Assembly: GCF_000195295.1 (NCBI RefSeq)
Contig: NC_015388.1
Location: 2,604,001-2,668,000, forward strand
Source of the DNA: Desulfobacca acetoxidans DSM 11109
Lineage (GTDB): Bacteria > Desulfobacterota > Desulfobaccia > Desulfobaccales > Desulfobaccaceae
DNA: 64,000 nucleotides
Direction of reading: 5' to 3'
Shown here in pieces: positions 21,886-42,723 of the stretch. The position numbers were made by a program, and so were the translations under genes. Numbering within the stretch: the first letter of the stretch is position 1; every line of letters starts with the position of its first letter. A model generated the notes under the pieces. It saw only the letters and a list, made by a program, of their open reading frames with translations. It was not told the DNA's origin and made no database searches.

Positions 21886-22326
21886 ATGGGTAGTCATTTT
21901 GATCTGGCTCGTTTGGACAAAATCGTGTCCCAGGCCCGGGAATATTTCTTTCAGCACATGCTTTCCGGATCCATGGCGGCTCAACTTGCCGTGGCAGCTT
22001 GCGCCCTCCTGGCGGCGTACAAAGTAGTCGCGGTTATCCGCGCCTGGATTACCCGCCAACAGTCAAAATGTTCTTCAGTCCAGGACCTCTGTTACGATCT
22101 GAAGAGATTAACGCATTTCTCATACGTGATAGGTCCGGCGTTGGGTTTGATCCTTTTATGGATTCCCTATTGTATTGCCGAACACCTCGACCTACCTCGG
22201 GATGGCCTCTACGCTATCGTTATTTGCTTGGTGGCCCTGACTCTGGTGCGGCTCCTTACCGGCCAGATGCAAAACCGCTTCTGGGCCACCATTATAGGGA
22301 GATACCATGGAGAAAAAAGCATATGA
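21886..22326 (+). CDS. Truncated MscS-like membrane protein
   Basis: The 146-residue product has three hydrophobic segments and reads like the N-terminal membrane part of a large MscS-type mechanosensitive channel, ending at RLLTGQMQNRFWATIIGRY, about where full-length members go on to the next helix. The pore helix and beta domain are absent. GGGAGAGG precedes the ATG at 21886. Its stop overlaps the permease start (ATGA at 22323-22326). It may be a remnant kept for coupling or a small membrane subunit of the transport operon. The MscS likeness is from general pattern and is not certain. Confidence 0.55.
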   Translation: MGSHFDLARLDKIVSQAREYFFQHMLSGSMAAQLAVAACALLAAYKVVAVIRAWITRQQSKCSSVQDLCYDLKRLTHFSYVIGPALGLILLWIPYCIAEHLDLPRDGLYAIVICLVALTLVRLLTGQMQNRFWATIIGRYHGEKSI

Positions 22327-23456
22327 CGACCCGGGGTGAAATGATCATGGAGCAATCTTCGGCTGACACGCTGAAGGTAATGATTTCCGGGGATTGGCTG
22401 CTTGGCGGTGAACTGCCAGCCGCCGATAGGGTTCAGCAGAGGCTGGAAGGTAGCCTAGGGGTTCGTAACCTAGTCTTCGACACCCGGGAGCTGGCTCATT
22501 GGGACACCGGGCTGCTGACTTTCCTGATGAGCCTGGCTACATTTTGCTCTCAGCAAAACATCTACCTGGACCGTGACGGACTGCCGCCTGGGGCCAAGAG
22601 ACTGCTGGAATTGGCCTCGGCGGTGCCGGAAAAGAAAGACGCCCATAAGGTGGAGGAGCGGCTGTCGTTTCTCGCCTTTTTGGGCAATGAAACCGTCAAT
22701 TTTTTCCAGTCTGCTGGCGAACTGCTGGAATTCATCGGCGATGCGGTTATTGCGGTTCTGAGGCTCATACGCGGCCAGGCCCAGTACCGGCGCGCCGATT
22801 TAGGTTTGATCATGCAGGCCGTGGGCGTCCAGGCCTTGCCCATCGTCTCTCTCATCTGTTTTTTGGTGGGGCTGATCCTGGCGTTTATCGGCGCCATCCA
22901 ACTGAAGCTATTCGGGGCCCAAATTTATGTGGCCGACCTGGTGGGCATTGCCATGGTGCGCTTGATGGCGGCGATTATGACCGGCATTGTCATGGCCGGC
23001 CGCACCGGCGGGGCCTTCGCCGCCCAACTGGGAACCATGCAGGTGAACCAGGAGATCGATGCCTTGAAAACTTTAGGTATATCACCCATGGAGTTTCTGG
23101 TGCTGCCGCGTATGCTGGCACTGGCCCTGATGATGCCCCTGCTCTGCCTGTACGCTAATGTCATGGGCATCCTGGGGGGTATGGCGGTGGGGGTCGGGAT
23201 GCTCGGTATCGGCTTTATTCAATACTATAACCAGACCGCAGCGGCGGTGGGTCTGTGGAATCTGGGCATCGGCCTGTTTTCCGGCACGGTGTTCGGGGTG
23301 ATCGTGGCCCTGGCCGGGTGCATGCGGGGCATGCAGTGCGGCCGCAGCGCCTCGGCGGTGGGCGACGCGGCCACCTCCGCAGTGGTCACCGCCATTGTCG
23401 GCATCATCGTCTCCACCGCGGCGATCACCATTTTGTGCAACTTTCTGGGAATATGA
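22323..23456 (+). CDS. MlaE-type lipid ABC transporter permease with STAS domain
   Basis: This is the inner-membrane permease of an MCE phospholipid transporter, 377 residues. Residues 1-100 form a STAS-like domain (VMISGDWLLGG, LVFDTRELAHWDTGLLTFL), which in plain MlaE systems is a separate protein (MlaB). Residues 150-377 are the MlaE permease with AGRTGGAFAAQLGTMQVNQE, the EIDALKTLGISP coupling helix and several membrane spans. ATG at 22323 overlaps the stop of the gene before it; ATG at 22347 with GGGGTGA upstream is an alternative. The ATPase follows 49 bases later. Confidence 0.92.
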   Translation: MTTRGEMIMEQSSADTLKVMISGDWLLGGELPAADRVQQRLEGSLGVRNLVFDTRELAHWDTGLLTFLMSLATFCSQQNIYLDRDGLPPGAKRLLELASAVPEKKDAHKVEERLSFLAFLGNETVNFFQSAGELLEFIGDAVIAVLRLIRGQAQYRRADLGLIMQAVGVQALPIVSLICFLVGLILAFIGAIQLKLFGAQIYVADLVGIAMVRLMAAIMTGIVMAGRTGGAFAAQLGTMQVNQEIDALKTLGISPMEFLVLPRMLALALMMPLLCLYANVMGILGGMAVGVGMLGIGFIQYYNQTAAAVGLWNLGIGLFSGTVFGVIVALAGCMRGMQCGRSASAVGDAATSAVVTAIVGIIVSTAAITILCNFLGI

Positions 23457-23505
23457 GACGGCTAGCCCTTAAGTGGAAAAGCCACCATTATCGGATAAAG
23501 GGAAC

Positions 23506-24264
23506 ATGACGGAAAAAGCAGCCCACATAACGGTGCGCGATCTTACTATGGCTTATGGCAACTTTGTCCTGATGCGGGACCTGACCTTTACCATCAACCG
23601 GGGTGATATCTTCATCGTCATGGGTGGCAGCGGCTGCGGCAAGAGCACCTTGATGACCATTTTGATCGGTTTGAAAGCCCCGGCCAAGGGTAAGGTCTTT
23701 TATGGAGAGGTGGATTTCTGGGGGTCCTCCCCCCAGACCCGCAACCGGATCATGCGCCGTTCCGGAGTGATGTACCAGAGCGGGGCGCTCTGGAGTTCTA
23801 TGACCCTGGCCGAGAATATCGGCCTGCCGCTGGAAACCTATACCAATCTAAGCCCAGCCCAAATTCGCGAGGTGGTCAAACTGAAACTGGCGCTGGTGGG
23901 AATGGCCGGGTTCGAAGAGTTTTATCCCGCGGAAATCAGCGGCGGCATGCAGAAACGGGCCGGCATCGCCCGGGCCATGGCCCTGGATCCGGAGATCCTG
24001 TTTTTCGATGAGCCTTCCGCCGGGTTAGATCCGGTGAGCGCCCGCCGTCTGGATGACCTGATTCTGGAACTGCGGGAGAGCCTGGGCACCACCATGGTGG
24101 TGGTGACCCATGAGTTGGCCAGCATCTTTGCGATTGGCAACAATTCCGTATTTCTGGATGTCTCCAAACGGACCATGACGGCTTCGGGCAACCCGAACCA
24201 GCTTTTGGCCAAAACCCGAGACCCCAATCTGCGCCTGTTTTTAACCCGGGGCGAGCAATCTTAA
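23506..24264 (+). CDS. MlaF-type ABC transporter ATPase
   Basis: This is the cytoplasmic ATPase of the MCE system, 252 residues. It has Walker A GGSGCGKST, Q-loop region MYQSGALWSSMT, signature ISGGMQKRAGIARA, Walker B LFFDEPSAGLDP and the switch His in VVTHEL. The C-terminal 30 residues, ending LRLFLTRGEQS, match the MlaF tail that contacts MlaB-type STAS domains. The ATG has AAAGGGA right upstream; an in-frame GTG at 23473 would add 11 residues with no such site. Confidence 0.94.
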   Translation: MTEKAAHITVRDLTMAYGNFVLMRDLTFTINRGDIFIVMGGSGCGKSTLMTILIGLKAPAKGKVFYGEVDFWGSSPQTRNRIMRRSGVMYQSGALWSSMTLAENIGLPLETYTNLSPAQIREVVKLKLALVGMAGFEEFYPAEISGGMQKRAGIARAMALDPEILFFDEPSAGLDPVSARRLDDLILELRESLGTTMVVVTHELASIFAIGNNSVFLDVSKRTMTASGNPNQLLAKTRDPNLRLFLTRGEQS

Positions 24265-24284: not shown

Positions 24285-25232
24285 ATGGCTAAGCAAGCAA
24301 ACCGAATGATGATCGGCGTTTTCGTGGTTCTTGCCGTGATTTTGATGGCCGCCAGCCTGGTGGTCTTCGGGTCAGGCAAGTTCTTCAAGAAAACCGTGAA
24401 ATGCGTGTTGTACTTCGATGAATCCGTCAAGGGGTTGAATGTAGGCGCGCCGGTGCTGTTCCAGGGCGTTCAAATCGGGTCGGTGACCAGCATTGTTCTC
24501 CAAGTCGACCCTGCTAAATTGCAGCCACAAATTCCTGTAACCATCGAATTCGAGCCGGATAGATTCAAGGTGCATGCAGAAGGCGGCAAAATACCCAGAG
24601 AGCCCCGAAAAAATATAGCCAAGCTCATCGACAAGGGCCTCCGAGCCGTACTGACGATGCAGAGTTTTATTACCGGGCAACTAATGATCGAGATTGATTT
24701 CCATCCCGGCACGCCGGTGGTGCTGAAGAACATCGGCAAAGACTTTATCGAGATTCCAACGATCCCGTCCACCAGCGAACGGCTGGCCCAGACCCTGGAT
24801 AAGCTGGATCTCGAGGGACTGAAAAAACACTTGGAATCGACCCTGGCCGGTATCGATCGGTTCGTTAACGGCCCGGACCTGATCGCCGGTATCCGGGCTC
24901 TGAAAGATACTCTCCAGGATGTCCGCAAAATCGTTGTCAAAATGGAAGGTCAGATTAATCCACTGGCGGACGACGTGAAAAAATCCGTCAAAGATATCGG
25001 TAAGCTGGCCCGTAATGCCGAAGCCAAATTAGACCCGCTGGGGACCGGTTTGGATAAGACCATGTCCTCTGTCAGGGGGATCATTTCCGAAGACTCACCG
25101 CTGATAGTTGAACTGCAGAACACGATGAAAGAGATTTCCGCCATGAGCCGGTCATTTCGGCAGTTGGCCAATTATCTGGAACAGCACCCCGAAACCGTGA
25201 TTCGCGGCAAGAAGAGTCCTGGAGGGAAATAA
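24285..25232 (+). CDS. MlaD-like MCE-domain protein
   Basis: This is the periplasmic lipid-binding subunit, anchored by one N-terminal membrane segment (MMIGVFVVLAVILMAASLVV). The MCE domain spans about 38-120 (YFDESVKGLNVGAPVLFQGV, IGSVTSI). A helical C-terminal tail (150-315, DTLQDVRKIVVKMEG and so on) is longer than that of E. coli MlaD and resembles the needle-type tails of PqiB/LetB or Mce proteins. Start is 20 bases after the ATPase stop, and the stop is one base before the lipoprotein start region. Confidence 0.93.
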   Translation: MAKQANRMMIGVFVVLAVILMAASLVVFGSGKFFKKTVKCVLYFDESVKGLNVGAPVLFQGVQIGSVTSIVLQVDPAKLQPQIPVTIEFEPDRFKVHAEGGKIPREPRKNIAKLIDKGLRAVLTMQSFITGQLMIEIDFHPGTPVVLKNIGKDFIEIPTIPSTSERLAQTLDKLDLEGLKKHLESTLAGIDRFVNGPDLIAGIRALKDTLQDVRKIVVKMEGQINPLADDVKKSVKDIGKLARNAEAKLDPLGTGLDKTMSSVRGIISEDSPLIVELQNTMKEISAMSRSFRQLANYLEQHPETVIRGKKSPGGK

Positions 25233-25233
25233 C

Positions 25234-25854
25234 ATGAGAGAGACGCCACTTTCTTGCGGCCTACCAATAATCCTGGTCATCGTGGCCATTTTTTGCAGCG
25301 GCTGCCTGAGCAGGAGTCAAACACCGCGTTTTTACAACTTGAGTGCAATGCAAAAAGATCAGGTGCTGGTAAAAAGTGAAAGCCCAGCTCAAAACGCGGT
25401 TATTGGCATCGGTCCCGTCAATCTGGCCGATTACCTCGAGACGTCGCAGATTGTCACCCGCACCAGCGACAATCAGGTGGGCAAAGCCGAGTACGATCGC
25501 TGGGTCGGCTCCTTCAAGGATAACTTCGTGAATGTCCTGGCGGACAATATCGGTTTTCTTCTCCCCACCGAACGGATTAATCTCTACCCCTGGCGTGGGA
25601 ACGTGTTCATCGACTACCAGGTTACCGTGGACGTGGTGCGTTGCGACGGCCGGTTGGGCGAGGCCGCCTGGCTGGAAAGCCGTTGGAGCATCTTCACGGG
25701 TCCGGGAAAAAAGCTGGTACAAACAATGCGGTCCAGTATCAGCGAGCCGGTGACAGGTGCGGATTACTCGGACTTGGTGGCAGCCCAAAGCCGGGCCCTG
25801 GCCAGGCTCAGCCAGGAGATTGCCGCGGCGATCAAAAGAGCTGGGAAGAACTGA
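25234..25854 (+). CDS. PqiC-like ABC-transport auxiliary lipoprotein
   Basis: The 206-residue protein has a signal peptide and lipobox ending at Cys24 (AIFCSGC) and the PqiC/ABC_trans_aux fold: FYNLSA, IGIGPVNLADYLETSQIVTR, EYDRWVGSF, VQTMRSSISEPVTGADYSDLVAAQSRALARL is split by short gaps in homologues. PqiC is the outer-membrane partner in Pqi-type MCE bridges. Its pairing here with an MlaE/F/D-like core makes a mixed Mla-Pqi layout. The ATG follows the mlaD stop by one base, so translation is coupled. AGGGAAATAAC lies just upstream. Confidence 0.88.
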   Translation: MRETPLSCGLPIILVIVAIFCSGCLSRSQTPRFYNLSAMQKDQVLVKSESPAQNAVIGIGPVNLADYLETSQIVTRTSDNQVGKAEYDRWVGSFKDNFVNVLADNIGFLLPTERINLYPWRGNVFIDYQVTVDVVRCDGRLGEAAWLESRWSIFTGPGKKLVQTMRSSISEPVTGADYSDLVAAQSRALARLSQEIAAAIKRAGKN

Positions 25855-28185: not shown

Positions 28186-28212
28186 AAGAAACTCTTAATT
28201 TAAGGAGTGAAT

Positions 28213-28650
28213 ATGTCTGCCAAAAATACAGAGACCATTCGCCTGCAAGAAGCCAGGGACGGCAAAGCGCCCTGGAAGAAGTGGGGTCCTTATCTCAGCG
28301 AACGTCAATGGGGCACCGTACGGGAGGATTATAGCGACAACGGCGACGCCTGGAGCTATTTCACCCACGACCAGGCCCGCTCTCGAGCCTACCGCTGGGG
28401 GGAAGATGGACTGGCCGGCATATCCGACGATAAGCAGCACCTATGTTTCGCCCTGGCCTTATGGAACGGTCGGGACCCCATCATCAAAGAGCGCCTCTTC
28501 GGACTTACCAACGCCGAAGGCAACCACGGCGAGGACGTCAAGGAATATTACTTTTATCTGGACAGCACCCCCACCCACTCCTACATGAAATATCTTTACA
28601 AGTATCCCCAGGCAGCCTATCCATATGCCAACCTGGTGGAAACCAGCGCA
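28213..28650 (+). pseudogene. Truncated GH63-type glucosidase (MGH1-like), N-terminal 146 residues
   Basis: The frame starts well (TAAGGAG five bases upstream) and reads like the N-terminus of the ~880-residue bacterial GH63/MGH1-like glucosidase: [48 protein letters not shown] and [19 protein letters not shown]. About 146 codons in, homology stops and 12 unrelated codons lead to a stop at 28684-28686. Over 80% of the enzyme, including the catalytic region, is missing. The break lies at about 28640-28655, where the next fragment begins in another frame. Confidence 0.8.
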
Positions 28651-29057
28651 GCATTCTGGGAAGTGGAGTCCAATTTCGGGTGCTGATGCACCCGCTGCTT
28701 AAACTCAAGTATTTTTTTGCTTATGGCGACTATAACCGCCGCGCCGAGGAAGTGGCTCCCCCCGCTACCGGGCCTTCCTATACCGATTTCCAGTCGATAA
28801 CGTTTCATTCCTGGGGCATGGTCCTGGAAAAGAACTGGGGAAAGCGAGCCAAACTGGCGTTGGAGAGCAATATCAATTATAGCTGGCAGGGGAACAATAT
28901 CGGGGTAAAGACCGTCAACGCACTGGCGGAAATGAACTACCTGTTGACCTACCACCTGTCTCTGCGCGCCGTGGGGTTTTATTCTCACAACGTGGGGCCA
29001 GGGGCTACTTCTTATCAGATGCGCAGTGTCTCCGGCGGGCTCTCATATCGATTTTAA
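28640..29057 (+). pseudogene. 3' fragment of an outer-membrane beta-barrel gene
   Basis: In the frame one base behind the glucosidase remnant, about 135 codons form clear beta-barrel strands with alternating residues and a C-terminal aromatic: LKLKYFFAYGDYNRRAEEVA, FHSWGMVLEKNW, LALESNINYSWQGNN, YHLSLRAVGFYSHNVG, SGGLSYRF. The terminal Phe is typical of outer-membrane proteins. No start or signal peptide is present, so it is the tail of a gene whose front was lost in the same event that cut the glucosidase. The parent family is not identified. Confidence 0.7.
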
Positions 29058-29099
29058 TGGTAAGGAAGAAAGCCCCCCCGCCACTGGGAGGATTTGAAC

Positions 29100-30605
29100 A
29101 TGGTTCGTTACCCTTCGCTTTACCAGATCAACACCCGGGTGTGGCTCCGGGAGCTTGGAGCCGCCCTGGGGCGTCCTGCCATGTTGGCCGACATTCCCGA
29201 GGAGTTTCTCGACCAAGCGGCAGCCAGGGGCTTTGACTATGTCTGGTTCCTGGGCTTGTGGCAGACCGGCCCCGCCGGACGAGCAATCTCCCTGAGCCAT
29301 CCCGAATGGCTGCGGGAATTCCAGGCGACACTTCCAGGTTTTGCCGAGGCCGACGTTAGCGGTTCGCCCTTTGCAGTGACGGGTTACACCCTGCATCGGG
29401 ATTTCGGCCAGGAAGAGGATCTATTCGGGTTGAGAGAGCGCCTGCGGGAAAGAGGACTAAAACTTATTGTGGATTTTGTCCCTAATCACACGGCCCCGGA
29501 TCACCCCTGGGTACAGACCCACCCGGAGTTCTACATCCAGGGGAGTAAAACCGACCTGGAGCGGGAGCCTCACAATTACCGGCAGGTAGAGACCGGTCGC
29601 GGCTCTCTCATCCTGGCCCACGGCCGTGATCCTTTCTCTTCCGGTTGGCCTGATACGTTTCAGCTCAATTACCGCCACCCGGCCCTCAGGGAGGCGATGA
29701 CGCAGGTGCTCCTCAAACTCGCCAAGGTCGCTGATGGCGTGCGCTGTGACATGGCCATGCTGGTTCTCCCTGAGGTCTTCCAGCGTACCTGGGGCGAGCG
29801 GTCCCTTCCGGCTGATGGTTCGGATCCCATGGACGAGCCCTTCTGGCCAACAGTCACCGGGCCGGTAAAGGCCAAAACCCCAGGGTTTATCTTTATGGCT
29901 GAGGTCTACTGGGACCTGGAGTGGGAACTCATGCAGCAGGGTTTTGATTATTGCTATGATAAAAAGCTGTATGACCGGCTTTTATCGCACGACGCCGCCG
30001 CCGCGCGCAGCCATCTCTGGGCTGATATGGTTTATCAGGATCGGTTAGTCAGATTTATGGAAAACCATGACGAGCCTCGCGCTGCCCAAGATTTTTCTCC
30101 GCCAGTGCACCAGGCCGCGGCAGTCATTACCTACTGTATACCCGGTCTGCGGTTCTTTCACGAAGGTCAACTTGAGGGCCGCCGGATCAAAGTCTCTATG
30201 CATCTGGGCCGTCGCCCGGAAGAACCGGTTGACCCCAACCTTCAGAAATTCTATCGGAAACTGCTGGCTTGCCTGGAGCGACCGGAAGTGCGGGACGGTC
30301 GCTGGAAACTCCTGGAGGTGCGTCCAGCCTGGGAGTGTAACCCCACCTGGGACCGCCTCCTGGCCTTCGCCTGGGAAAGAGTACCGGGGCAACGGTTGCT
30401 GATTGCGGTGAATTACGGTCACACCCAGGGACAGTGCTACGTCAATTTCCCCTTTGTTGATTTCAGCGGGAGAAAGGTAATCCTTCAAGACCTGATGAGC
30501 GAAACAGTTTATGAGCGGGGAGGTGATGACTTACTGATTAATGGTCTTTACCTGGACCTGCCCGCTTGGGGATATCATATCCTTGCGTGTGACTGGTCTG
30601 ATTAG
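29100..30605 (+). CDS. GH13 alpha-amylase-family glycoside hydrolase
   Basis: The 501-residue cytoplasmic protein has the TIM-barrel with all GH13 motifs: region I DFVPNHT, region II GVRCDMAML with the nucleophile Asp, region III FIFMAEVYWD with the acid/base Glu, and region IV FMENHDEPRA. Substrate is not shown; the family includes amylases and glucan-modifying enzymes acting on glycogen-like stores. GGGAGG lies nine bases before the ATG at 29100. The neighbouring GH63 remnant suggests a former glycogen/trehalose-type locus of which this enzyme is the survivor. Confidence 0.9.
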   Translation: MVRYPSLYQINTRVWLRELGAALGRPAMLADIPEEFLDQAAARGFDYVWFLGLWQTGPAGRAISLSHPEWLREFQATLPGFAEADVSGSPFAVTGYTLHRDFGQEEDLFGLRERLRERGLKLIVDFVPNHTAPDHPWVQTHPEFYIQGSKTDLEREPHNYRQVETGRGSLILAHGRDPFSSGWPDTFQLNYRHPALREAMTQVLLKLAKVADGVRCDMAMLVLPEVFQRTWGERSLPADGSDPMDEPFWPTVTGPVKAKTPGFIFMAEVYWDLEWELMQQGFDYCYDKKLYDRLLSHDAAAARSHLWADMVYQDRLVRFMENHDEPRAAQDFSPPVHQAAAVITYCIPGLRFFHEGQLEGRRIKVSMHLGRRPEEPVDPNLQKFYRKLLACLERPEVRDGRWKLLEVRPAWECNPTWDRLLAFAWERVPGQRLLIAVNYGHTQGQCYVNFPFVDFSGRKVILQDLMSETVYERGGDDLLINGLYLDLPAWGYHILACDWSD

Positions 30606-31105: not shown

Positions 31106-32389
31106 ATGATGAACCATGGTGGAAAAAAAGCCAAAACCGGATATAGTCTTTTACCCGGTTTGTTGTCCGGCATACTGTGCACAGTAATCCTCTCCAGTGG
31201 AGTGGCCCTTAGCGCCGCCAATTACGAGGTGCCCAGCAATAAACAGGCCTCCGAGGTGTTGCCACCGAAACTGAGGTCCGGACCGCACTTTAACGTTCAG
31301 GACCAGGTGGCGGCGGATGGATATATGCTCCGTTATACGGTTAATTCGGATTACGGGACTTTTCAGGTCACCGGCACGTATGGCCTGCGAAAGCTCATTA
31401 AAGAAATTCAAGCCATTGCCGCGATGAAAGAAATGAGTCGAGGCGAAGCCTTCGTGGAAGGGGTGAAAGGCAAGGCGCAAGAGACCTTGGAATTTGGGAC
31501 CAATCTTGTTGCTGATCCCGCCAACACCCTGGCCAGCGTTCCCAAAGGGGTGGCCAAGCTTTTTGACAACATTGCTACGGGTCTTCAACAACCCCGGGAG
31601 CCCCGGCGGGATCCCGTGCGCCAACAGCTTTTAAATGTCTCCGACGCCAAACGGAAAATTGCTTATGACCTGGGGGTGGATGTCTACTCCAGCAACCGGG
31701 TGCTGCAAAATGAATTGGATAGCCTGAGTAAGGCCCAAGCTCTGGGTTCCTTAGGAGTTTCGGCAGCTATTCCTTATGGTGGCGGCGCTGTGGCGGGTAT
31801 CAGCAGAATGTCGGCCACTGCCAGCCAAGTGAACCGTCTGCTCCGGGATGAATCGCCGAGTGGACTTCGGAATATCAACGAACAAAAACTTCAGGCCATG
31901 GGGGTGGACCAGAGCCTGACGGAGAGATTACTCAATCATACTCAGCTCAGTCCGCGCCAGAAGACTGTTATCGTGGCAAGCCTGGAAAAGCTTCACGGAG
32001 CTCAGGGCCGGGGGGCGTTCATCAACTTTGCCTTGCGGGCCACTGACGAGGATTCGGCTAATTTTATGCAAAACATAGCCGAAATTCTGGCGGCTTATCA
32101 GCAGTCAGTTGCACCCCTCCAGGAGATCACGGCACCTGGGGTCGTCATGGCCCGGGCGGCCAACGGCACGGTGCTTATTCCCTTTCCTCTGGATTATGGG
32201 GTCTGGACGGTACGGGCCGAGCGGGCGGTGAAGAACACCCTGGCCGGCTACAAGATGTCCAGCCGCAATCCTGCTAACTTTGAACTCTGGGTGACCGGCG
32301 CGGTGTCTCCCCTCGCTCGTCGTCAGCTTGAGGCCCAAGGCATTAAGGTGGTGGAAAATGTCGAGCAGCGCATCGGTATGATGGATTGA
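31106..32389 (+). CDS. Secreted protein of unknown function
   Basis: The 427-residue product begins with a signal-like segment (LLPGLLSGILCTVILSSGVALS, cut probably after about residue 37). The mature part has a conserved-looking first half (YMLRYTVNSDYGTFQVTGTY, LRKLIKEIQAIAAM) and a central Gly-rich stretch (AAIPYGGGAVAGISRMSATA). I do not recognise a domain. AAAGGGGAAAG is upstream of the start. It is followed 52 bases later by the larger secreted protein, and the two are probably co-transcribed. Confidence 0.7.
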   Translation: MMNHGGKKAKTGYSLLPGLLSGILCTVILSSGVALSAANYEVPSNKQASEVLPPKLRSGPHFNVQDQVAADGYMLRYTVNSDYGTFQVTGTYGLRKLIKEIQAIAAMKEMSRGEAFVEGVKGKAQETLEFGTNLVADPANTLASVPKGVAKLFDNIATGLQQPREPRRDPVRQQLLNVSDAKRKIAYDLGVDVYSSNRVLQNELDSLSKAQALGSLGVSAAIPYGGGAVAGISRMSATASQVNRLLRDESPSGLRNINEQKLQAMGVDQSLTERLLNHTQLSPRQKTVIVASLEKLHGAQGRGAFINFALRATDEDSANFMQNIAEILAAYQQSVAPLQEITAPGVVMARAANGTVLIPFPLDYGVWTVRAERAVKNTLAGYKMSSRNPANFELWVTGAVSPLARRQLEAQGIKVVENVEQRIGMMD

Positions 32390-32441
32390 TGGCCCTAAGT
32401 TTTGTTACAAATGGCTATGAACCGAAAAGGAGAGGTTTGTC

Positions 32442-34997
32442 ATGAACAGAAAGCGTCATGCGAGTAAGTTTAGAAAAATGGCTATCTTGACTATTCTGAC
32501 TTCGGTTCTGATTCTCAGCCGGGCAGCCATGGCTGCTCAGGAGTCATGGCCCAAGGTCTTTGAGCACCCCAACGGCAAAGTCACCATGTATCAGCCGCAG
32601 TTAGAAAGCTTTGAGGCCGACAAGCTCACGGCCCGGGCGGCGGTCTCAGCAAAGCGCAAGGACATGAAGGAGCCGATATTCGGGGTGGTGTGGCTTTCGG
32701 CCCGGGTGGCCACCGACCGGGACACCCGTATGGTCACCATTGATGAACCGAAAATCACCGACATCAAAGCAGCCGGGGTGGAACCGGAGAAGTTGGAGAA
32801 ATTCAAGGAGTTTATCAACTCCGAGGTGCAGGATTTGAGCGCTGACATCTCCATGGACCGGGTTCTGGTCATGGTGGAAGACCTCAAGAAACATCAGGCC
32901 GAAGATCAAGGCCTGAGAACCAATCCTCCCAAAATCATCTATGAAAACCAGCCGGCGGTGCTGGTGCCGCTGGACGGCGCCCCGAAACTGCGCCCCCTGG
33001 AAAAGACCAAACTCATGCGGGTGGTGAACACCCCCTTCATCATGATCTATGATCCGGCGACCAAGGCCTATTTTCTCAAGGGCGGCGATGTCTGGCTCAC
33101 CGCCGCCGAGGTGCAGGGTCCCTGGAAAGACGCCAAGAGCCTCCCGGAGGAGATGAAGGCCCTGGAGGAGCGCACCCAGAAAGAAAGCAAAGCGCCCCAG
33201 GGGAAAAAGGTGAAGGCCTCCCTTGACCTGATGCCGAAGGTCATCGTCAGCACGGAGCCCACCGAACTCATCGTCTCGGAAGGCGAGGCGGATTGGACAC
33301 CCATCTCTGGCACCGGGCTGCTCTATCTGAGCAACACCGACAGCAACGTCTTTACGGATACCGCCAGCCAGCAGTATTTTGTGCTCATTTCAGGCCGCTG
33401 GTTCACCGGCAAGTCTCTGCAGGAAGGCCCCTGGGCCTATGTGGCCCCGGATAAGCTGCCGGGGGATTTTGCCAAGATTCCAGAAAAGTCTCCCAAGGGT
33501 TTTGTCCTGGCCAATGTGGCCGGCACCCAGGAGGCCAAAGAGGCAGCGGCGGAGGCGGCCATTCCTCAGACCGCGGCCATTGACCGGAAAAAGGCCACTA
33601 CCCAGGTCAAGTACGACGGTCAGCCGCAATTTGAGAAGGTGGCCGGAACTGATTTGGAGTATGCCAAGAACACCGGCCAGGCCGTGTTTAAGGAAGGGGC
33701 GAAGTTTTATGCCTGCGATCAGGGGGTGTGGTATGAGGCGGACTCCCCCAACGGCCCCTGGCGGGTGTCAGTCCAGCCTCCCAAAGACAAGGGGAAAATC
33801 CCTCCCAGCAACCCCCACTACAACGTGAAGTACGCGGACGTCTATGATTCCACCGACGATGTAGCCTATGTAGGGTATACCCCAGGCTATACTGGGACCT
33901 ACATGCAGGGCGGCACGCCGGTATATGGCACTGGCTATACCTATCCGGCTTATGCCAGTGACACGGCTTACATCCCTTATCAAGACACCTATGGGTATGG
34001 CGCAGCCTACGACCCATATGCCGGATCCTATGCTTCTACCCCCTCGTATTACGATCCCGTCTCCTGGCTAGGTGCTGCCGCAGTAGCTGCGGGCACTGTG
34101 GCCCTTACTGCTGCGGTGGCAGACAACTGGTGGGACAATTACAGCCCCGGTTATTACGGTCCGAGTTATTGGGGTGGGGCTAGCGGCTACTGGGGCGCCG
34201 GGGGCTACCACTATACCAACATCAATAACATTCATTATAGGGTGGTAGGTATTCCTCCCGCGCCTCCCGGTCAGCGGCCGCCGCGGCCTTGGATGGATGG
34301 GCCAAGACCAGGCGACCGGCCGGGTATTGGCGAGCGGCCTGGCCTTGGGGAAGGGCCGAGGGTGGACCACCGTGCAGCCCTGGCCGGGGGTTTGGCTGGA
34401 GGTTTGGCGGGTGGGACAGCCGCAGGCTTGGTGGGAAATCTTTACAATCGGCCCGGCAATAAGAATAATCTGGCGGAGCGGCGGCCCGGTAAACCCGGTG
34501 AGCGCCCCGGGGGTCCTGGCCAAGTGGGGCGGCCCAAACCCGCAACCCGCCCCGCCCAGGCCAAACCTCGCCCCGCCGGTCCCAACAACGTCTTTGCTGA
34601 TAAGAATGGCAATGTCATGAAACGGGACAACAAGGGCAACTGGCAGCAGCGCCAGGGGAGCCAATGGAAACCGGCGGCATCTCCGGCAACCCGGCCGGCG
34701 GCGGCAACTCGGCCAGCCTCCCGGCCTGAGCGCCCGGCGGCATCGACTCGCCCAACTCCCGCAGCCCGTCCAACCGCGGCTCCGCGGCCCAGCTTCGACA
34801 ACGGTCGATTGAACCAGGACTTTGCGGCTCGGCAGCGGGGCGAGAGGCGCACCCAGAACTTCCAGCGAGCCAGTTCGGCCTCTCGGCCCAGCCCCAGTTT
34901 CTCCCGACCCGGCGGCGGCGGCTTCCGAGGCGGTGGCGGCGGCGGTGGATTCCGCGGGGGCGGCGGTCGCGGCGGCGGCCGGGGCGGCCGGCGTTAG
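32442..34997 (+). CDS. Large secreted protein with GPW modules and Tyr-, Pro/Arg- and Gly/Arg-rich tail
   Basis: The 851-residue product has a signal peptide (about 1-32) and a globular N-terminus (35-160). Three similar modules follow, at about 200-237, 294-350 and 404-455. Each has aromatic strands, a W(F/Y/L) pair and a GPW motif followed by a Lys/Pro stretch (VWLTAAEVQGPW; RWFTGKSLQEGPW; VWYEADSPNGPW). Residues 470-590 are Tyr/Gly-rich, 600-830 are Pro/Arg/Ala-rich, and the end is a Gly/Arg run (GGGFRGGGGGGG and RGGRR). Homologues are often named carbohydrate-binding family V/XII, but no function is known. The tail suggests binding to a polyanion or the cell surface. Strand and frame are supported by the signal peptide. 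Confidence 0.75.
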   Translation: MNRKRHASKFRKMAILTILTSVLILSRAAMAAQESWPKVFEHPNGKVTMYQPQLESFEADKLTARAAVSAKRKDMKEPIFGVVWLSARVATDRDTRMVTIDEPKITDIKAAGVEPEKLEKFKEFINSEVQDLSADISMDRVLVMVEDLKKHQAEDQGLRTNPPKIIYENQPAVLVPLDGAPKLRPLEKTKLMRVVNTPFIMIYDPATKAYFLKGGDVWLTAAEVQGPWKDAKSLPEEMKALEERTQKESKAPQGKKVKASLDLMPKVIVSTEPTELIVSEGEADWTPISGTGLLYLSNTDSNVFTDTASQQYFVLISGRWFTGKSLQEGPWAYVAPDKLPGDFAKIPEKSPKGFVLANVAGTQEAKEAAAEAAIPQTAAIDRKKATTQVKYDGQPQFEKVAGTDLEYAKNTGQAVFKEGAKFYACDQGVWYEADSPNGPWRVSVQPPKDKGKIPPSNPHYNVKYADVYDSTDDVAYVGYTPGYTGTYMQGGTPVYGTGYTYPAYASDTAYIPYQDTYGYGAAYDPYAGSYASTPSYYDPVSWLGAAAVAAGTVALTAAVADNWWDNYSPGYYGPSYWGGASGYWGAGGYHYTNINNIHYRVVGIPPAPPGQRPPRPWMDGPRPGDRPGIGERPGLGEGPRVDHRAALAGGLAGGLAGGTAAGLVGNLYNRPGNKNNLAERRPGKPGERPGGPGQVGRPKPATRPAQAKPRPAGPNNVFADKNGNVMKRDNKGNWQQRQGSQWKPAASPATRPAAATRPASRPERPAASTRPTPAARPTAAPRPSFDNGRLNQDFAARQRGERRTQNFQRASSASRPSPSFSRPGGGGFRGGGGGGGFRGGGGRGGGRGGRR

Positions 34998-35021
34998 GTT
35001 TTCGGTACGAAGGAAAATTCT

Positions 35022-36104
35022 TTGAAAATACTCCAAAAAATTTTTTATGGTTTGACCCTGTTCTTCATCCCCTTGACCATAATCCTGGATAGGATCGGGG
35101 GTGTACCCCAACCGCTATTGTTTTTTCTGGCCGCCGTAGCCATTTTTCCGTTGGCGGCTTTGTTGGTGCATGCCACCGAGCAACTGGCCTCCTACACAGG
35201 CGACACCATCGGTGGTTTGTTAAATGCCACCTTCGGCAACGCCCCAGAGTTGATCATTGCGCTGGTGGCCCTGAAGGCCGGGCTATATGACATGGTCAAG
35301 GCGTCCATTATTGGCGCCATTCTGGCCAACATGCTCCTGGGCCTCGGGCTGGCTTTTCTGTTAGGTGGATATCGCCGCCACACTCAGAATTTCAATCCGG
35401 TCGCCGCCCGTAATTTCATGACCATGATGCTCCTGGCAGTCATCAGCCTGGCCGTTCCCAGCACCTTTCACAACTTTGTCACCGCTGACGCCATTCAGCA
35501 CGAACAATATGTTAATCTGGCCGTGGCCGTGGTGCTTTTAGCCACTTATGGCTTGAGCTTGTTCTTTATGTTGCAGACCCATCCCGATTTCTTTAAGAGT
35601 TCAGCGGAGGATGTGGAACCTCCGGATGAAGTGAGGTGGAGTTTACCCCGAGCCGTAGCCATCCTGCTGCTGACTTCGGTTTTCGTGGCCTTTATGAGCG
35701 AAATCCTGGTGGGCGCGGTGGAGGAAACAGGCAGGACTTTAGGCATGTCTCAGGCTTTTATTGGCTTAGTCATCCTGGCCGTGGTCGGCGGTGCCGCGGA
35801 GAGTAGCTCGGCGGTGGCCATGGGGATGAAAAACCGCATGGATCTGAGCCTTTCTATTGCCATCGGCAGCTCCATACAAATTGCCCTGTTTGTGGCGCCG
35901 GTCCTCGTACTTATGAGCTACTTCATAGCTCCCCAACCCCTCAATCTGGTATTTAATCGGGTCCTGTTGGGGATCATATTCCTGACCGTGCTGATCGGCG
36001 CCATGGTGGCAGGAGACGGCAAAGCCAACTGGTTTAAGGGAGTCCAGTTAATCACGGTTTATATCATATTGGCCATCATGTTTTATTTTTTGCCAGGCTC
36101 ATAA
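35022..36104 (+). CDS. cax: Calcium/proton antiporter (CaCA family)
   Basis: The 360-residue inner-membrane antiporter has the two alpha repeats of the CAX branch: GNAPELIIALVALKAGL in the first half and GGAAESSSAVAMGMKNRMDL in the second, each with the ion-binding Glu. About ten hydrophobic segments and an acidic loop (SAEDVEPPDEV) separate them. It exports Ca2+ (or Mn2+) in exchange for H+. The start is TTG with AAGGA seven bases upstream. Confidence 0.92.
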   Translation: MKILQKIFYGLTLFFIPLTIILDRIGGVPQPLLFFLAAVAIFPLAALLVHATEQLASYTGDTIGGLLNATFGNAPELIIALVALKAGLYDMVKASIIGAILANMLLGLGLAFLLGGYRRHTQNFNPVAARNFMTMMLLAVISLAVPSTFHNFVTADAIQHEQYVNLAVAVVLLATYGLSLFFMLQTHPDFFKSSAEDVEPPDEVRWSLPRAVAILLLTSVFVAFMSEILVGAVEETGRTLGMSQAFIGLVILAVVGGAAESSSAVAMGMKNRMDLSLSIAIGSSIQIALFVAPVLVLMSYFIAPQPLNLVFNRVLLGIIFLTVLIGAMVAGDGKANWFKGVQLITVYIILAIMFYFLPGS

Positions 36105-36176
36105 TCAAGGAAAAGAATTTCAGGGAGTAGCCCGGGGCATCGGTTTTCACCGGCGTTCCCAGAGATGGGAAGCACT

Positions 36177-36887
36177 ATGCTAAAAAAACAGCGCATGAGT
36201 CTCTCAAAACTCCATCCACACCATTTTTGGTCCGATGAAAGCAGCCTCACGAGCCTGCTTATCTTTACTCTGGGATATTTGATTGTCCTTAATTCACTGA
36301 GTGAGTTCAGTTTCGGCAGGTTGGCGGCCCGCCTGTTTTTTTCTCTCATTATTGTAGCCGGCGTTTTCACTACGTTTAAACACCGATGGTTACGGGGGTT
36401 CGCCTTGGTCCTGGCGGTGGCCAGTCTGGCCCTTAACTGGGCGGAGGAAATTCGGCCAGGAGGGGGACTAACGACCCTGAACGTTAGCGTTAGCCTCATC
36501 TATATGGCGTTCTTGTTGGCCATAGTGATAAACCAGGTCTTTCGGGAAGGACCGGTAACCGGCCACCGGATTCGCGGCGCCATTCTGATTTACCTGCTTC
36601 TGGGGGGATTATGGGCCATGCTTTACCAAGTGGTGGCTTTGACCATGCCCCATGCTTTTCGCTTACCGGAAGGAATGGGCGTTGGGGATCCTGACGTATT
36701 GCAACGCACGTTGACCTATTTCAGTTTTATCACTATCACTACCACCGGGTACGGCGATATTACCCCGATACATCCCTTGGCGCGCACATTGTGCATGCTC
36801 GAGGCCCTGGTGGGGCAGCTTTACCCGGCCATCACCTTGGCCCGGCTGGTATCTTTGGCAGTTATGCACCAAAAAGAAAACCCGTGA
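36177..36887 (+). CDS. Two-pore-helix-type ion channel (potassium-channel-like)
   Basis: The 236-residue protein has four to five N-terminal membrane segments followed by an inner pore module whose selectivity filter reads TTTGYGDITP, as in K+ channels. The last helix (MLEALVGQLYPAITLARLVSLAV) is the pore-lining helix. There is no RCK/TrkA domain. ATG at 36177 has GGGAAG five bases upstream; ATG at 36165 is an alternative. It is 60-90 bases from both neighbours. Ion specificity is likely K+ from the filter. Confidence 0.85.
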   Translation: MLKKQRMSLSKLHPHHFWSDESSLTSLLIFTLGYLIVLNSLSEFSFGRLAARLFFSLIIVAGVFTTFKHRWLRGFALVLAVASLALNWAEEIRPGGGLTTLNVSVSLIYMAFLLAIVINQVFREGPVTGHRIRGAILIYLLLGGLWAMLYQVVALTMPHAFRLPEGMGVGDPDVLQRTLTYFSFITITTTGYGDITPIHPLARTLCMLEALVGQLYPAITLARLVSLAVMHQKENP

Positions 36888-36923
36888 AATTTTTAAGATC
36901 TGAAAGATATGAGGTAATCTTCA

Positions 36924-38114
36924 ATGGATCGATATCATATTGTCCTAAGCCCCGGCGTTGCAGTTCATTTTCTGGCAGCCATCAGCCTATCGGCTTGCAT
37001 GTTAAGTGGCTGCGGCGAGAAAAAGGCGGCCGGCCCGGCAGTTCCCACGGTGGAAGTGGTGAATGTGGCCCAGAAGGACGTGCCCATTTTCCGAGAGTGG
37101 GTGGGCACTACGGACGGCCTGGTAAACGCCAAAATCAATGCCCAAGTGCAGGGTTACCTCATCAAGCAAAACTATCAGGAAGGCTCGGTGGTGAAGAACG
37201 GTCAGGTTCTCTTTGAGATCGACCCCCGGCCTTTCCAGGCCGCCCTGGAGCAGGCCAAAGGGCAACTGGCCATCAACGAAGGCCAGCTCTACACCGCCAA
37301 GGCCAACCTGGACAAGATCAGGCCCCTGGCCGCGGTGAGCGCGGTGAGCAAGAAAGATCTGGATGACGCCATCGGCCGGGAGGCTTCGGCCCGGGCCGCG
37401 GTCCAGGCCGCCAAGGCGGCGGTGCGGAAAGCGGAAATCGATCTCAGTTTTACCAAGATAACCTCCCCCATCGATGGCATTGCTGGCATCGCCAAAGCCC
37501 AGTTGGGGGAACTGGTGGGGAATCCCGGCGGTCCGGAACTGACCACGGTATCCACGGTTGATCCCATTAAAGTGTATATTCCTCTCAGCGAACAGGAATA
37601 TTTGCATTATATCAAGGAGGGAGAAGCTAAGGAAATATCCGACCGAGAAACTCCTAAACTTGAACTGGTCCTGGCCGACGGCAAGGTCTTTCCCCACAAA
37701 GGCAAGGTCTTCTTTGCCGACCGCCAGGTGGACGAGCGCACCGGCACCATCAAAGTGGCCACCCTCTTTCCCAATCCCGGGAATATCCTACGGCCCGGGC
37801 AATTCGCCAAAATCAAAGCATTAATCGATACGCAAGAAGGGGCGTTACTGGTTCCGCAGCGCGCGGTCATCGAACTCCAAGGAAAATTCCAGGTGGCCGT
37901 GGTGGGTCCAGACAATAAGGTGGACCTGCGTTGGGTCAAGGTGGGTGAACGCGCCGGCCCTCTCTGGGTGATTGATGAGGGCCTCAAGCCAGGGGAGAAC
38001 GTGATTGTGGAGGGGATCCAAAAGGTGAAAGCCGGTATGCCAGTCTCCCCCAAGCCGCATCAGGAGGCTTCGGCTGGCGCCCAAGACTTACCCGCCGGGA
38101 AGCAGGAGAGGTAG
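36924..38114 (+). CDS. RND efflux periplasmic adaptor (AcrA/MexA family) lipoprotein
   Basis: The 396-residue adaptor joins the inner-membrane pump to the outer-membrane channel. It has a lipobox (LSGC, Cys30), the lipoyl/hairpin part ([22 protein letters not shown]; coiled helices at about 105-165) and the C-terminal barrel and MP domains ([20 protein letters not shown]). GAGGT precedes the start. It is the first gene of an adaptor-pump-channel operon (next gene 5 bases away). Confidence 0.95.
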
Positions 38115-38119
38115 GGGCC

Positions 38120-41100
38120 ATGGCGCGCTTTTTCATTAATCGGCCCATTGTGGCCATCGTCATCTCCATCGTCATGGTGATCGTGGGAGTGGTGGCGCTC
38201 TTGGGTCTGCCCATTTCCCAATACCCCAACATTGTCCCGCCGGAAATATTCATCAACACCACCTACGTGGGCGCCGATGCCCAAACGGTGGAACAGTCCG
38301 TGGCCACGCCCATCGAACAGGAGATGAGCGGCGTGGACAATATGAATTACATGTACTCGTTGAACGCCAACAACGGTGAGTTAAAGCTGTACGTAAACTT
38401 CGATGTCCAAACCGACCCTAATATCGACCAGGTGCTAGCCCAGATGCGCCAGGCCCAGGCCGAGGCCAAACTCCCCGCCGACGTGCGCAACTACGGCATT
38501 ACCGTTAAGAAATCAACCGCGGCGCCCCTCATGGTGGTGGACCTCATTTCTCCCCAAGGCACCTACGACGCCACCTTCCTGGCCAATTACGCCTACATCA
38601 ACTTGAACGACCAGATCACCCGGGTAGCCGGCATTGCCAGCGTCACCGTTTTCGGGGCTGGCCAATATGCCATGCGTTTCTGGGTCAAACCCGACCAACT
38701 AGCCAAGCTCAACATCACCATTCCCGAGATCGTCGATGCCATCCAGAAACAGAACACGGTGAATCCCTCGGGACAAGTGGGGGCGGAGCCAGCCCCTAAA
38801 GGCCAGGAATACACCTACGCCATACGCTCCCAGGGCCGACTGGAAAACCCGGAGGAGTTTGAACAGATCGTGCTCCGGGCCAACCCGGACGGATCGTTGG
38901 TCCGGCTGAAAGACGTGGCCCGCATCGAACTGGGGTCCCAGACTTATGCCCTCGAAGGACGTTTGAATGGCAAGGCCTGCGCCGTCTTGGCCATCTACCA
39001 GCTCCCCGGCACCAATGCCATCCAGGCGGTGGATGGCGTGAAAAAGCTCATGGAGCAGGCCAAAAAGTCTTTTCCCCCCGATATGGACTATGCCATCGCC
39101 CTGGACACCACCCAGGCAGTGCGGGAGGGTCTTAAGGAAATCGTTCACACCCTTTTTGAAGCCCTCGTTCTCGTCATCATCGTCGTCTTCATCTTCCTCC
39201 AGGGCTGGCGGGCCACCCTCATCCCGGCCCTAGCAGTGCCCGTCTCGCTGGTAGGCACCTTTGCTCTTTTCCCCCTCCTGGGCTTCTCCATCAATACCAT
39301 TGCCCTCATGGGGTTGGTCCTGGCCATCGGCATCGTGGTGGACGACGCCATTGTGGTGGTGGAGGCCGTCGAGCACCACATCGAGCATGGCTTGTCGCCC
39401 AAAGACGCCACCATCAAGGCCATGGAGGAGGTCACCGGGCCGGTGGTGGCCACGACCTTTTCTTTGGCCGCGGTCTTCATTCCCACCATCTTCATTCCCG
39501 GCATCACCGGACGGCTCTACCAGCAATTCGCCATCACCATCGCCGTCTCGGTTATCATTTCCTCCTTCAACGCTCTCACTCTGACCCCAGCTCTGTCGGC
39601 CCTGCTTCTCAAGCCGAAAAAGGCATCGCAGGGGCCGCTCAGCCGCTTCTACCGCTGGTTCAATGAAGCCTTCGGCCGCACCACCAACGGCTATGTCAGT
39701 TGGTGCGGAACTCTTATCCGGAAGGCGGGGATGAGCCTCCTCTTTTTGGCCCTGGTGGCGGGACTCGCCGGACTTTTGGGAGGTAGACTGCCCGGCGGTT
39801 TCCTCCCGGAAGAAGACCAGGGATATCTGTATGCCGGGGTGCAGTTGCCCGACGCCTCCTCCCTGCAACGCACCAGCGAAGTCTGTCGCCAGATCGAGGA
39901 GATTATGGGGAGCACCCCGGGGGTGGAATACGTCACCTCGGTGATTGGCTACAGCATGTTGAGCGGCGTCACCAACACGTATAGCGGCTTTTTCTTCGTC
40001 ACTCTGAAGCCCTGGCACGAGCGAAAAAAACCAGAAGAGAAATACGAAGCCATCATGGCCATCCTCAATGGGAAATTGAGCAAGCTCCCCCAGGGTATTG
40101 CCTTTGCCTTCTCGCCTCCGGCCATTCCCGGCATCGGCACCGCCGGCGGGGTCACCTTCATCTTGGAAGACCGGGCCGGCAAAGACATCCCCTTCCTCTG
40201 GGGAAACACGCAGAAATTCCTGACCGCAGCCCAGAAACGTCCGGAACTTTCCCGCGTTACCACCACCTTCGTCCCCACCGTGCCTCAGATCTTCGTCAAG
40301 GTGGACCGGGACAAGGTGCTCAAGCAGGGGGTGGACATCGGCGAGGTCTACCGGGTGCTGCAGGCCTTCATGGGCGGCTACTTCGTCAATTACTTCAACC
40401 GCTTCGGCCGCCAGTGGCAGGTGTATGTGCAGGCCGAAGGGGAATACCGGGTCCAGGCCGAACAGTTGGGCCAATTCTATGTGCGCAATAAGAACGGCGA
40501 CGCCGTACCTCTAAGCGCCCTCACCAGTTTGGAGCAGCGCTCCGGCCCGGAGTTCACCATGCGCTACAACCTCTACCGGGCCGTCCAGATCAATGCCGTC
40601 ACCGCCCCAGGCTACAGTTCCGCCCAGGGGATGAAGGCTTTGGAAGAAGTCTTCCGACAGACCATGCCGGCTGAAATGGGCTACGATTATCTGGGGATGT
40701 CCTATCAAGAGAAGAAGGCCCAGGAAGGCGTACCTGCCTGGGTTGTCTTCGCCCTGTCGCTGTTGTTCGTTTTCTTGATCCTGGCGGCCCAATACGAAAG
40801 TTGGTCCCTTCCCTTCAGCGTGCTGTTGGGCACACCCGTTGCGATCTTTGGGGCCTTTTTAGGCATATCCCTGCGGGGCATGGAGCTTAACATCTATGCT
40901 CAGATCGGCCTGATCCTGCTCATCGGCCTGGCCGCCAAGAATGCCATCCTCATTGTCGAGTTCGCCAAGGTGGAATACGAAAAAGGCAAGGATTTCGCCG
41001 ATGCGGCCCTGGAGGGGGCGCGTTTGCGGCTCCGCCCCATTCTCATGACGAGCTTCGCCTTTATCCTGGGGTGCATTCCCCTGGCCCTGGCTTCCGGTTC

Positions 41101-41293
41101 GGGGGCCATCGCCCGGAAGGTCATGGGCACCGCCGTGATCGGGGGGATGACGGCCGCAACAATTATCGCCATTTTCCTCATCCCGGTGACCTTTTACGTG
41201 GTGGAAAAATTTTCTCACCGCAAAGGCAAGGAAAACCCGAGGCCCAGTGTGGCCGCGGCTGATCCCCCGGGTCATCAAGGAGAAAAATCATGA
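38120..41293 (+). CDS. RND multidrug efflux pump (AcrB/HAE1 family)
   Basis: This is the full-length 1057-residue inner-membrane proton-driven exporter. It starts with the typical [19 protein letters not shown], has the TM4 Asp pair ([12 protein letters not shown]), the TM10 Lys ([15 protein letters not shown]), and two large periplasmic loops. The PYPNI-type segment near residue 35 is [10 protein letters not shown]. The C-terminus ([11 protein letters not shown]) is slightly extended. It overlaps the outer-membrane factor by four bases. Substrates, likely hydrophobic drugs or solvents, cannot be told. Confidence 0.97.
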
Positions 41294-42723
41294 GGATCTG
41301 TCTGATCATGCTTCTGTTCATGTTGGTGTGCGGCTGCACCCTCGGCCCTGACTACCAGCGGCCCGGCTATCCGGTCCCCCCTACTTTTCGGGGTGCAGGA
41401 CCGGATCTCTCCAAGCAGCCAGCCGAGGTCTCCTTCGGGGACCTGAAGTGGTTCGAGGTGTTTAAGGACCAGAAACTCCAGGAGCTGATCCACATCGCCC
41501 TCCAGGAAAACTACGACGTCCAGATCGCCGCCCAGCGGGTGATGGCCGCCCGGGAACAGGTGACCATCCAAAGATCCTATCTCTTCCCCACCCTCAATAC
41601 CAACGGCCAACTGGAGAGCCTGCGCACCTCGGAACGTGGCTTTTCCGTTCTCGCCCCCCAGCAGGAGCGTATGGCCGGCCTAATCTTCGGCGACCTTTCC
41701 TGGGAATTGGACTTCTTCGGCCGCATCCGCCGAGCCACGGAAGCTGCCCGGGCGGAGTTTTACGCCTCCGAAGAGAACCGCAAATTCGTCATCCAGACCC
41801 TGGTAACCGATCTGGCCCGGGCCTACATAGAGCTCAGGGCCCTGGACCAGCAGCTCGACATCAGCAACCGCACCGTCAAAGTCAGGGAAGAGTCACTCAA
41901 ACTGGTCAAGGCGCGCTTTGATTACGGCTGGGATTCCCAGACACCCGTGCTCATGACCGAAAATCTGGTTTACGGCGCCCGGGCCGTGGTTCCCGACCTG
42001 CAAAGAGCCATCGAACAGCAGGAGAACCGCATCACCACCCTGCTGGGGCGCAACCCAGGGCCAGTTAGCCGGGGCAAACCTCTCCTGAAGCAGAAGTTAT
42101 CCGTCACTATCCCGCCGGGAATGACTTCCGCTCTCCTGGAGCGGCGCCCCGACGTCCGCTTTGCCGAGGAGTCCTTGGTGGCGGCCAACGCCCGCATCGG
42201 GGAGGCCAAGGCCCTGCTCTTTCCCAACATCAGGATTACCGGCGTCGCCGGCTGGGAATCCGCGGCCCTGAAAAGTCTGTTCTCCGCCCATGCCAGTTTC
42301 TGGGATGTTATTTCCCCCGGCATCACCCAGCCCATCTTCAACGCCGGGCGGCTCCGGGCCAATGTCCGGGCCACCGAGGCCCTGCAGCAGGAGGCCCTCC
42401 TGAATTACAAAAAGTCCATTCAACAGGCCTTCCGGGAGGTCTCCGACGCCTTGGTGGGCGTCCGCCGCTTACGGGAAGTCCGTCTCGAGGCCGAAAAGCA
42501 GGTCCAGGCCCTGACCAAGCAGACTGACCTGGCCAACCAACGCTATTTTGGCGGTGTGACTCCCTACCTGGAGGTCCTGGACTCCGACCGCCAGCTTTTC
42601 GAAGCCGAACTGCGGCTGACCCAGGTCCAGGCCAACGAACTCCTGGCCGTCATTGCCCTGTACCGGGCCCTGGGGGGTGGCTGGCAAACTGCCAGTGAAC
42701 CTGCCGACTCTCAAAATCAATAG
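41290..42723 (+). CDS. Outer-membrane factor lipoprotein (NodT/OprM family)
   Basis: The 477-residue trimeric channel completes the efflux system. It has a lipobox with Cys16 (LVCGC), TLGPDYQRP at the mature start, and two TolC-type repeats (ending in [20 protein letters not shown] and [15 protein letters not shown]). AAGGAG is just before the ATG, which overlaps the pump stop (ATGA), so translation is coupled. The adaptor, pump and channel are in the usual order. Confidence 0.95.

Follow-up and report, generated by a model that had tools for sequence, protein, structure and literature searches.

A secreted three-module protein of Desulfobacca acetoxidans with a predicted TULIP-like domain, tentatively a lipid carrier or sensor of the diderm envelope

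As summarized in the survey by Levine (2019; PMC6791001), the bacterial TULIP proteins include YceB, P47/OrfX2, DUF4403, DUF2140, and DUF2993, and those of diderms may require a partner for lipid hand-off. How phospholipids traverse the diderm periplasm is still under study, and few partners have been assigned to bacterial TULIPs. Here, we analyzed two adjacent genes of Desulfobacca acetoxidans DSM 11109, located in a stretch of 64,000 nucleotides (NC_015388.1, positions 2,604,001 to 2,668,000; hereafter the window). They encode a small and a large secreted protein. The large protein combines an N-terminal domain of predicted TULIP-like fold, three modules marked by a Gly–Pro–Trp (GPW) tripeptide, and a low-complexity tail. 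With a probability of about 0.42, we propose that it carries or senses lipids in the periplasm by means of a TULIP-like domain, in the service of envelope transport, chiefly by MCE and sometimes RND systems.

The closest described protein is YceB (DUF1439), a putative lipid-binding lipoprotein of Escherichia coli (PDB 3l6i). YceB is likewise an exported protein of the diderm envelope, and it resembles the N-terminal domain of the large protein in predicted fold. The large protein differs in having no detectable sequence homology to YceB, in not being a lipoprotein, and in carrying about 700 further residues, which form the modules and the tail. The YceB family (PF07273) was found in none of 59 Desulfobacterota genomes, including that of the window. 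The predicted fold also resembles BPI, LBP, Takeout, SMP, and OrfX2/P47. DUF4403 was present in 2 of the 118 genomes of the phylum searched, and not in the genome of the window. The abstract of the above survey (PMC6791001) lists no family like the large protein, and neither the abstract nor sections 6, 8, and 12 present a TULIP that bears GPW repeats or a tail of the Gly/Arg type. MCE (Mla-type) genes lie near the large gene at some loci, with predicted operons at L064 and L053. The large protein itself is no MCE protein, having no match to PF02470, and we know of no Mla component with its architecture. The DUF3300 secreted proteins, which we take to be of the E. coli YacH kind, share similar Gly/Arg tails in some cases (L129 and L130). 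Their domain (PF11737) matched none of the 77 sequences of the large-protein family and was not found in genome G000.

The conserved core of the large protein (residues 31–549) was modeled with AlphaFold2 using 77 sequences. The model had a mean predicted local distance difference test score (pLDDT) of 85.7 and a predicted template modeling score of 0.82. By its structural matches, its N-terminal domain is predicted to have the TULIP arrangement, in which a curved antiparallel sheet wraps around a helix. The top two PDB matches in Foldseek were both E. coli YceB (E = 3.3e-3 and 9.1e-3, probability 1.00). VIA-align, applied to the Foldseek list, aligned YceB (3l6i_A) with Z = 10.0 and a root mean square deviation of 3.7 over 108 residues (model residues 1–108). 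Further Z values were 8.3 for LBP, 7.7 for Der p 7, 7.3 for OrfX2, 7.2 for BPI, 6.3 for the SMP domain of TMEM24, 6.0 for Aha1, 5.9 for BPIFA1, and 5.8 for Takeout. Judging by their names, we take 15 of the first 16 rows to be TULIP-type proteins; the remaining one was Aha1. The program warns that a Z below 8 may mean a common arrangement, and YceB and LBP lie above that range. The structural matches span model residues 1–122 at most. These results point to a predicted TULIP-like fold for residues 31–143, a putative separate folded unit that the sequence-only reading had missed. If the fold holds, the large protein would be a bacterial TULIP of unusual modular architecture.

The genes upstream in the window encode an MCE transporter. 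We searched 297 genomes of the phylum, 13 of which matched the large protein over its core (E below 1e-50). Four of these carriers had an MCE gene at most 10 kb away from the large gene: G000 (7.7 kb), G139 (2.7 kb), G142 (7.4 kb), and G281 (8.8 kb). The four genomes represent three lineages, G000 and G139 being of the same order. The chance expectation from the MCE copy number, counted by eye in each genome, was about 0.27 as against the four observed (Poisson P = 0.0027, with G000 and G139 counted once). In the Planctomycetota locus L064, the large gene opens a predicted operon in which the genes for DUF4136, a glycine-zipper-like protein, MlaE, MlaF, MlaD, and a lipoprotein-like open reading frame (ORF) follow on the plus strand with gaps of at most 60 bp. 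The terminal lipoprotein was named from its position and sequence, having no match in Pfam. In L053, the predicted operon runs mlaF, mlaD, PF03886 lipoprotein, small gene, large gene. Such a linkage would supply the hand-off partner suggested for diderm TULIPs in the summary of Levine (PMC6791001). The TULIP-like domain and the MCE neighbors together shift the lead hypothesis from glycans to lipids.

In the proposed mechanism, the soluble large protein would be exported by Sec into the diderm envelope, where its N-terminal domain would bind a hydrophobic molecule, presumably a lipid. Behind this domain, the three GPW modules may act as a rigid scaffold. The Tyr/Gly zone and the cationic Gly/Arg tail could hold the protein at an anionic surface of the envelope (lipopolysaccharide, the outer membrane, or peptidoglycan, for example). 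The lipid would most plausibly be passed to MCE (Mla-type) transporters, and RND efflux may be served in some lineages. The ORFs, the modules, the conservation, the export signals, the predicted fold, and the gene neighborhood are what the data show directly; lipid binding, the hand-off to MCE, and the roles of the modules, the tail, and the small partner are what we infer here. A broader proposition is that these proteins constitute a new class of lipid carriers among the bacterial TULIPs, disseminated by horizontal transfer, which bear one TULIP domain on a scaffold of three GPW modules with a conserved cationic Gly/Arg tail and pass lipids to or from MCE transporters; we regard it as doubtful. 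A widespread family outside Pfam and NCBIfam, some of whose RefSeq records are named as carbohydrate-binding, offers with its predicted TULIP domain and its MCE neighbors a testable candidate for lipid transport in cultured hosts (Geobacter, Algoriphagus, and Pseudoalteromonas). If true, the proposal would mean that several hundred genes need a corrected annotation (one scan found 318 relatives).

Several results weigh against the assignment as a lipid carrier. An hhalign comparison of the N-terminal domain with YceB, whose profile contained only 6 sequences, gave a probability of 0.67%, and 11 of 150 column-shuffled controls scored as high. Since the shuffles match the real score, the TULIP-like claim is limited to the predicted fold and does not extend to homology. 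For a TULIP, the domain is short, and its first elements are strands, where a helix would be usual. Matches to Aha1, polo-box, and BamC domains were obtained as well, with Z values of 4.5–6.0. There was no structural match for the GPW modules, which the Foldseek search of the core model covered, or for the tail. Most relatives, moreover, lack an MCE gene in the vicinity. With the MlaE and MlaD of the window and of L156 as blast queries, relatives turned up at 4 large-gene loci (L044, L053, L064, and L156) out of 87, the window not counted. No MCE gene lay within 10 kb in 9 of the 13 carrier genomes, among which G141 and G259 have the gene on contigs of 5–8 kb, and both sites of G214 are at or close to the end of a contig. 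The locus and genome searches overlap (L045 and L050 = G214, L053 = G139, L084 = G287, L110 = G063). The immediate neighbors of the large gene were diverse: DUF4136 was the commonest (7/97), followed by a long tail. This set comprised 97 scanned ORFs out of 132, excluding the window, L041, L043, L108, L109, L120, and ORFs outside 120–1199 residues. The large gene has no single conserved operon.

RND efflux genes occur at 9 of the 87 large-gene loci and in the window. In L078 (3333-12076) and L119 (2628-12109), which belong to two phyla, an RND pump, an outer-membrane factor, a K+-type channel, and the large gene share one direction in predicted operons; the window holds the same RND, channel, and large-gene set in a different order (32442-42723). 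The large protein might be an accessory of islands for envelope stress and efflux, which hold an RND pump, a K+-type channel, and a cation exchanger, acting as a periplasmic scaffold or chaperone with no lipid ligand. Its patchy, accessory distribution, with any match in 17 of the 297 genomes, would suit such a role. We consider this explanation unlikely: RND genes are common, the locus counts are raw counts, and both the TULIP-like fold and the MCE operons would be left unexplained.

The sequence-only reading had suggested glycan binding or a surface matrix. The large protein would then act at the surface or extracellularly, its GPW modules binding polysaccharide and its low-complexity tail gelling or adhering. 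This is rather improbable in our judgment. The repeated aromatic modules and the Tyr/Gly and Gly/Arg low complexity are in line with it, as are the name ‘carbohydrate-binding family V/XII’ that RefSeq gives to some relatives (Pseudoalteromonas) and the sugar-enzyme neighbors (glycogen phosphorylase in L047, L049, L051, L150, and L155; an alpha-amylase in the window). However, none of the 77 family sequences matched a carbohydrate-binding module family, the N-terminal domain resembles lipid-binding folds, and the lipid-transport and efflux neighbors indicate the envelope. Our searches gave support to neither a glycan ligand nor a matrix. The lack of a known domain was borne out, and the modules matched no known enzyme family, a match that would have told against that reading. 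The large protein matched 0 families in a Pfam scan, and searches with it or its core against Pfam, NCBIfam, PHROGs, and the PDB sequences were empty, enzyme families included. Among the 77 sequences, Pfam returned a single stray DUF7110 match, and no PF02470, PF07273, PF11737, or carbohydrate-binding family; NCBIfam returned a single stray UBP match. A viral fold search gave no meaningful match, and a literature search of limited scope found no paper on the family. The weak matches to RhrA, PhrK, eL31, ClpS, DUF7110, and UBP, recorded over both proteins and their families, were isolated and were taken as chance. It is more improbable still that the TULIP resemblance reflects a common alpha/beta arrangement only, with the N-terminal domain being an unrelated fold: the lack of sequence homology to YceB, the short domain, and Z values below 8 in all rows but two would fit, but the TULIP-type rows represent proteins of various organisms, and YceB stands out with its Z of 10.0.

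Table 1. Features of the window around the large gene (positions of the window; residue numbers are those of the large protein).
Feature	Position	Strand	Basis
MlaE-type permease of MCE lipid transporter, upstream neighbor	21999..23456	+	PF02405, E 4.4e-65
MlaF-type ATP-binding cassette ATPase	23473..24264	+	P-loop GGSGCGKST; position between mlaE and mlaD
MlaD (MCE-domain) protein	24285..25232	+	PF02470, E 3.6e-12
PF03886 auxiliary lipoprotein of MCE operon	25234..25854	+	E 6e-39
Alpha-amylase	29094-30605		Pfam scan
Small partner protein, 427 residues, secreted, no known domain	31106..32389	+	ORF; signal-like N-terminus
Large protein, 851 residues: predicted TULIP-like domain, three GPW modules, Tyr/Gly zone, Pro/Arg zone, Gly/Arg tail	32442..34997	+	ORF
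Signal peptide, residues 1–30	32442..32531	+	Sequence; cleavage around AMA/AQ judged by eye
Predicted TULIP/YceB-like domain, residues 31–143 (model residues 1–113)	32532..32870	+	AlphaFold2; VIA-align to YceB 3l6i_A
GPW module 1	32913..33149	+	Profile comparison
GPW module 2	33231..33485	+	Profile comparison
GPW module 3	33594..33803	+	Profile comparison
Conserved VGYTPGY strand region and Tyr/Gly/Trp-rich zone, residues 455–620	33804..34301	+	Alignment, composition
Pro/Arg/Gly-rich low-complexity zone with D-x-x-G-N-V motif	34302..34913	+	Alignment, composition
Gly/Arg C-terminal tail	34914..34994	+	Composition; tail comparison among relatives
Sodium/calcium-exchanger-type protein; starts 24 bp after large gene; downstream in L053 too	35022..36104	+	PF01699
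Ion channel; adjoins RND efflux genes 36924-42723	36165..36887	+	PF07885

The three GPW tripeptides of the large protein lie at residues 226, 329, and 438. Searches with the profile of each module matched the other two in 76–77 of the 77 sequences (independent E-value < 0.01), and hhalign between the modules gave probabilities of 98.65–99.27%. By these comparisons, the modules are true repeats related beyond chance, as the sequence-only reading had described them. Propeller proteins that Foldseek matched over the modules reached a probability of only about 0.02–0.04 and were discarded. The GPW module also occurs alone, outside the triplet. Short single-module proteins were seen at L014, L015, L016, L017, and L019 (best independent E-values 1.3e-5 to 3.3e-9; about 170–325 residues from stop to stop). 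They share one GPW copy with the large protein, several having a signal-like N-terminus by eye, but they lack the N-terminal domain and the triplet. In an Agrobacterium plasmid relative (L042:7740-10304), an additional SH3-like segment precedes the TULIP-like domain and accounts for the RefSeq name of this protein.

The layered low complexity was borne out by composition, and its zones recur in relatives. Residues 455–520 contain 23% Tyr and 14% Gly, residues 760–825 contain 20% Arg and 15% Pro, and residues 825–851 contain 70% Gly and 22% Arg. The Gly and Arg fraction of the last 40 residues was 0.70, compared with a 99th percentile of 0.375 among 829 neighboring ORFs. In the family, 54 of 83 members exceeded the 99th percentile of neighboring proteins in the Gly and Arg fraction at the C-terminus. 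Among 73 complete relatives, the window included, 62 had three or more Lys or Arg in their final 10 residues, and a D-x-x-G-N-V-type motif was recognized in the tail of 49, which is a lower bound. To judge from these sequences, the low-complexity zones are a family feature, and the tail is conserved in kind. A signal-like hydrophobic stretch was found in 81 of the 83 members and a lipobox in one (heuristic search); export without lipidation appears to be conserved across the family. The DUF3300 proteins of L129 and L130, whose domain is unrelated to the large protein, likewise have a C-terminal Gly/Arg tail of this kind (e.g., GGGARRGGGGRRR). The Gly/Arg tail is probably a tail type common to different secreted proteins. 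Two other very Gly/Arg-rich secreted proteins adjoin the small gene (L145:9393-10346) or lie near the large gene (L094:13126-14835).

A scan with the core of the large protein, taking one genome per species, found the 318 relatives, and the best 80 of the 318 were retained. The alignment contained the window and 76 of the 80 fetched loci, leaving out L050, L066, L108, and L109. L041 and L043 were left out of the counts, as no ORF for the large protein was called there. The identity to the large protein was about 40–65% among the aligned relatives. In the FastTree phylogeny, the 76 relatives belonged, by NCBI titles, to Bacteroidota (16), Thermodesulfobacteriota (15), Myxococcota (11, many labeled only Deltaproteobacteria), Pseudomonadota (6), Planctomycetota (5), Krumholzibacteriota (5), Acidobacteriota (4), Gemmatimonadota (4), and others. 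No Bacillota or Actinomycetota were among them, and the phyla that carry relatives are diderm. The phylum labels required 26 changes on the tree versus a minimum of 13. Within the 297 genomes, the matches outside the 13 core carriers (4 genomes) covered only a single-module stretch. G080, the sole genome of the same genus in this sample, had neither the large nor the small gene. Sequence searches thus depict the distribution as patchy and accessory, spanning many phyla.

The small and large ORFs are co-directional on the plus strand, with 52 bp between them. Both have signal-like N-termini, and the claim that the pair is secreted holds. The small protein had no Pfam or PHROG match, and its NCBIfam rows were weak and at chance level only. 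Its AlphaFold2 model from 7 sequences reached a pLDDT of 49.6. The small gene was found in 16 of the 297 genomes. Both genes were present in 5 genomes, the large gene only in 8, and the small gene only in 11, with the 13 core carriers counted as large-gene genomes (Fisher P = 0.0002). Outside the order of the window (12 genomes in the sample, counted by eye), only 2 genomes had both genes (P = 0.06). The idea of a conserved pair stands in part. The small gene adjoins or lies near the large gene in three arrangements: small to large in the window, L045, L050, and L053; large to small, 19 bp apart, in L150 (= G181); and nearby on the opposite strand in L094. The large gene mostly occurs without it. 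The small protein is an optional partner, usually absent beside the large gene, and not a fixed second half. In G257, the small gene is followed by an unrelated gene. At the small-only loci L145 and L152, it stands with genes for a patatin and an MGH1-like glycosidase. In L047, the small protein is reduced to about 118 residues, and the gene seems to be subject to decay.

Enzymes of lipid metabolism, which also speak for the lipid reading, were seen beside the large gene at other loci. A lipid A acyltransferase gene (PF03279) lies 37 bp upstream in L110, and the same ORF cluster precedes the large gene in L069, L084, and L111. Directly upstream are a PF01553 acyltransferase in L081 and a patatin in the Pseudoalteromonas locus L040. 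A frame-broken remnant occupies 28207-29057 of the window. Its start (28207-28686) resembles that of the MGH1-like glycosidases of L145 and L152, and its second part, in a different frame, closes with a terminus (YRF) like that of an outer-membrane barrel. A tetratricopeptide repeat (TPR) protein, whose N-terminal region is unassigned, is encoded on the minus strand at 19694-21328. It has a blast relative near the large gene in L076, with which the gene immediately upstream of the large gene in L042 clusters. The TPR protein is possibly a shared regulator.

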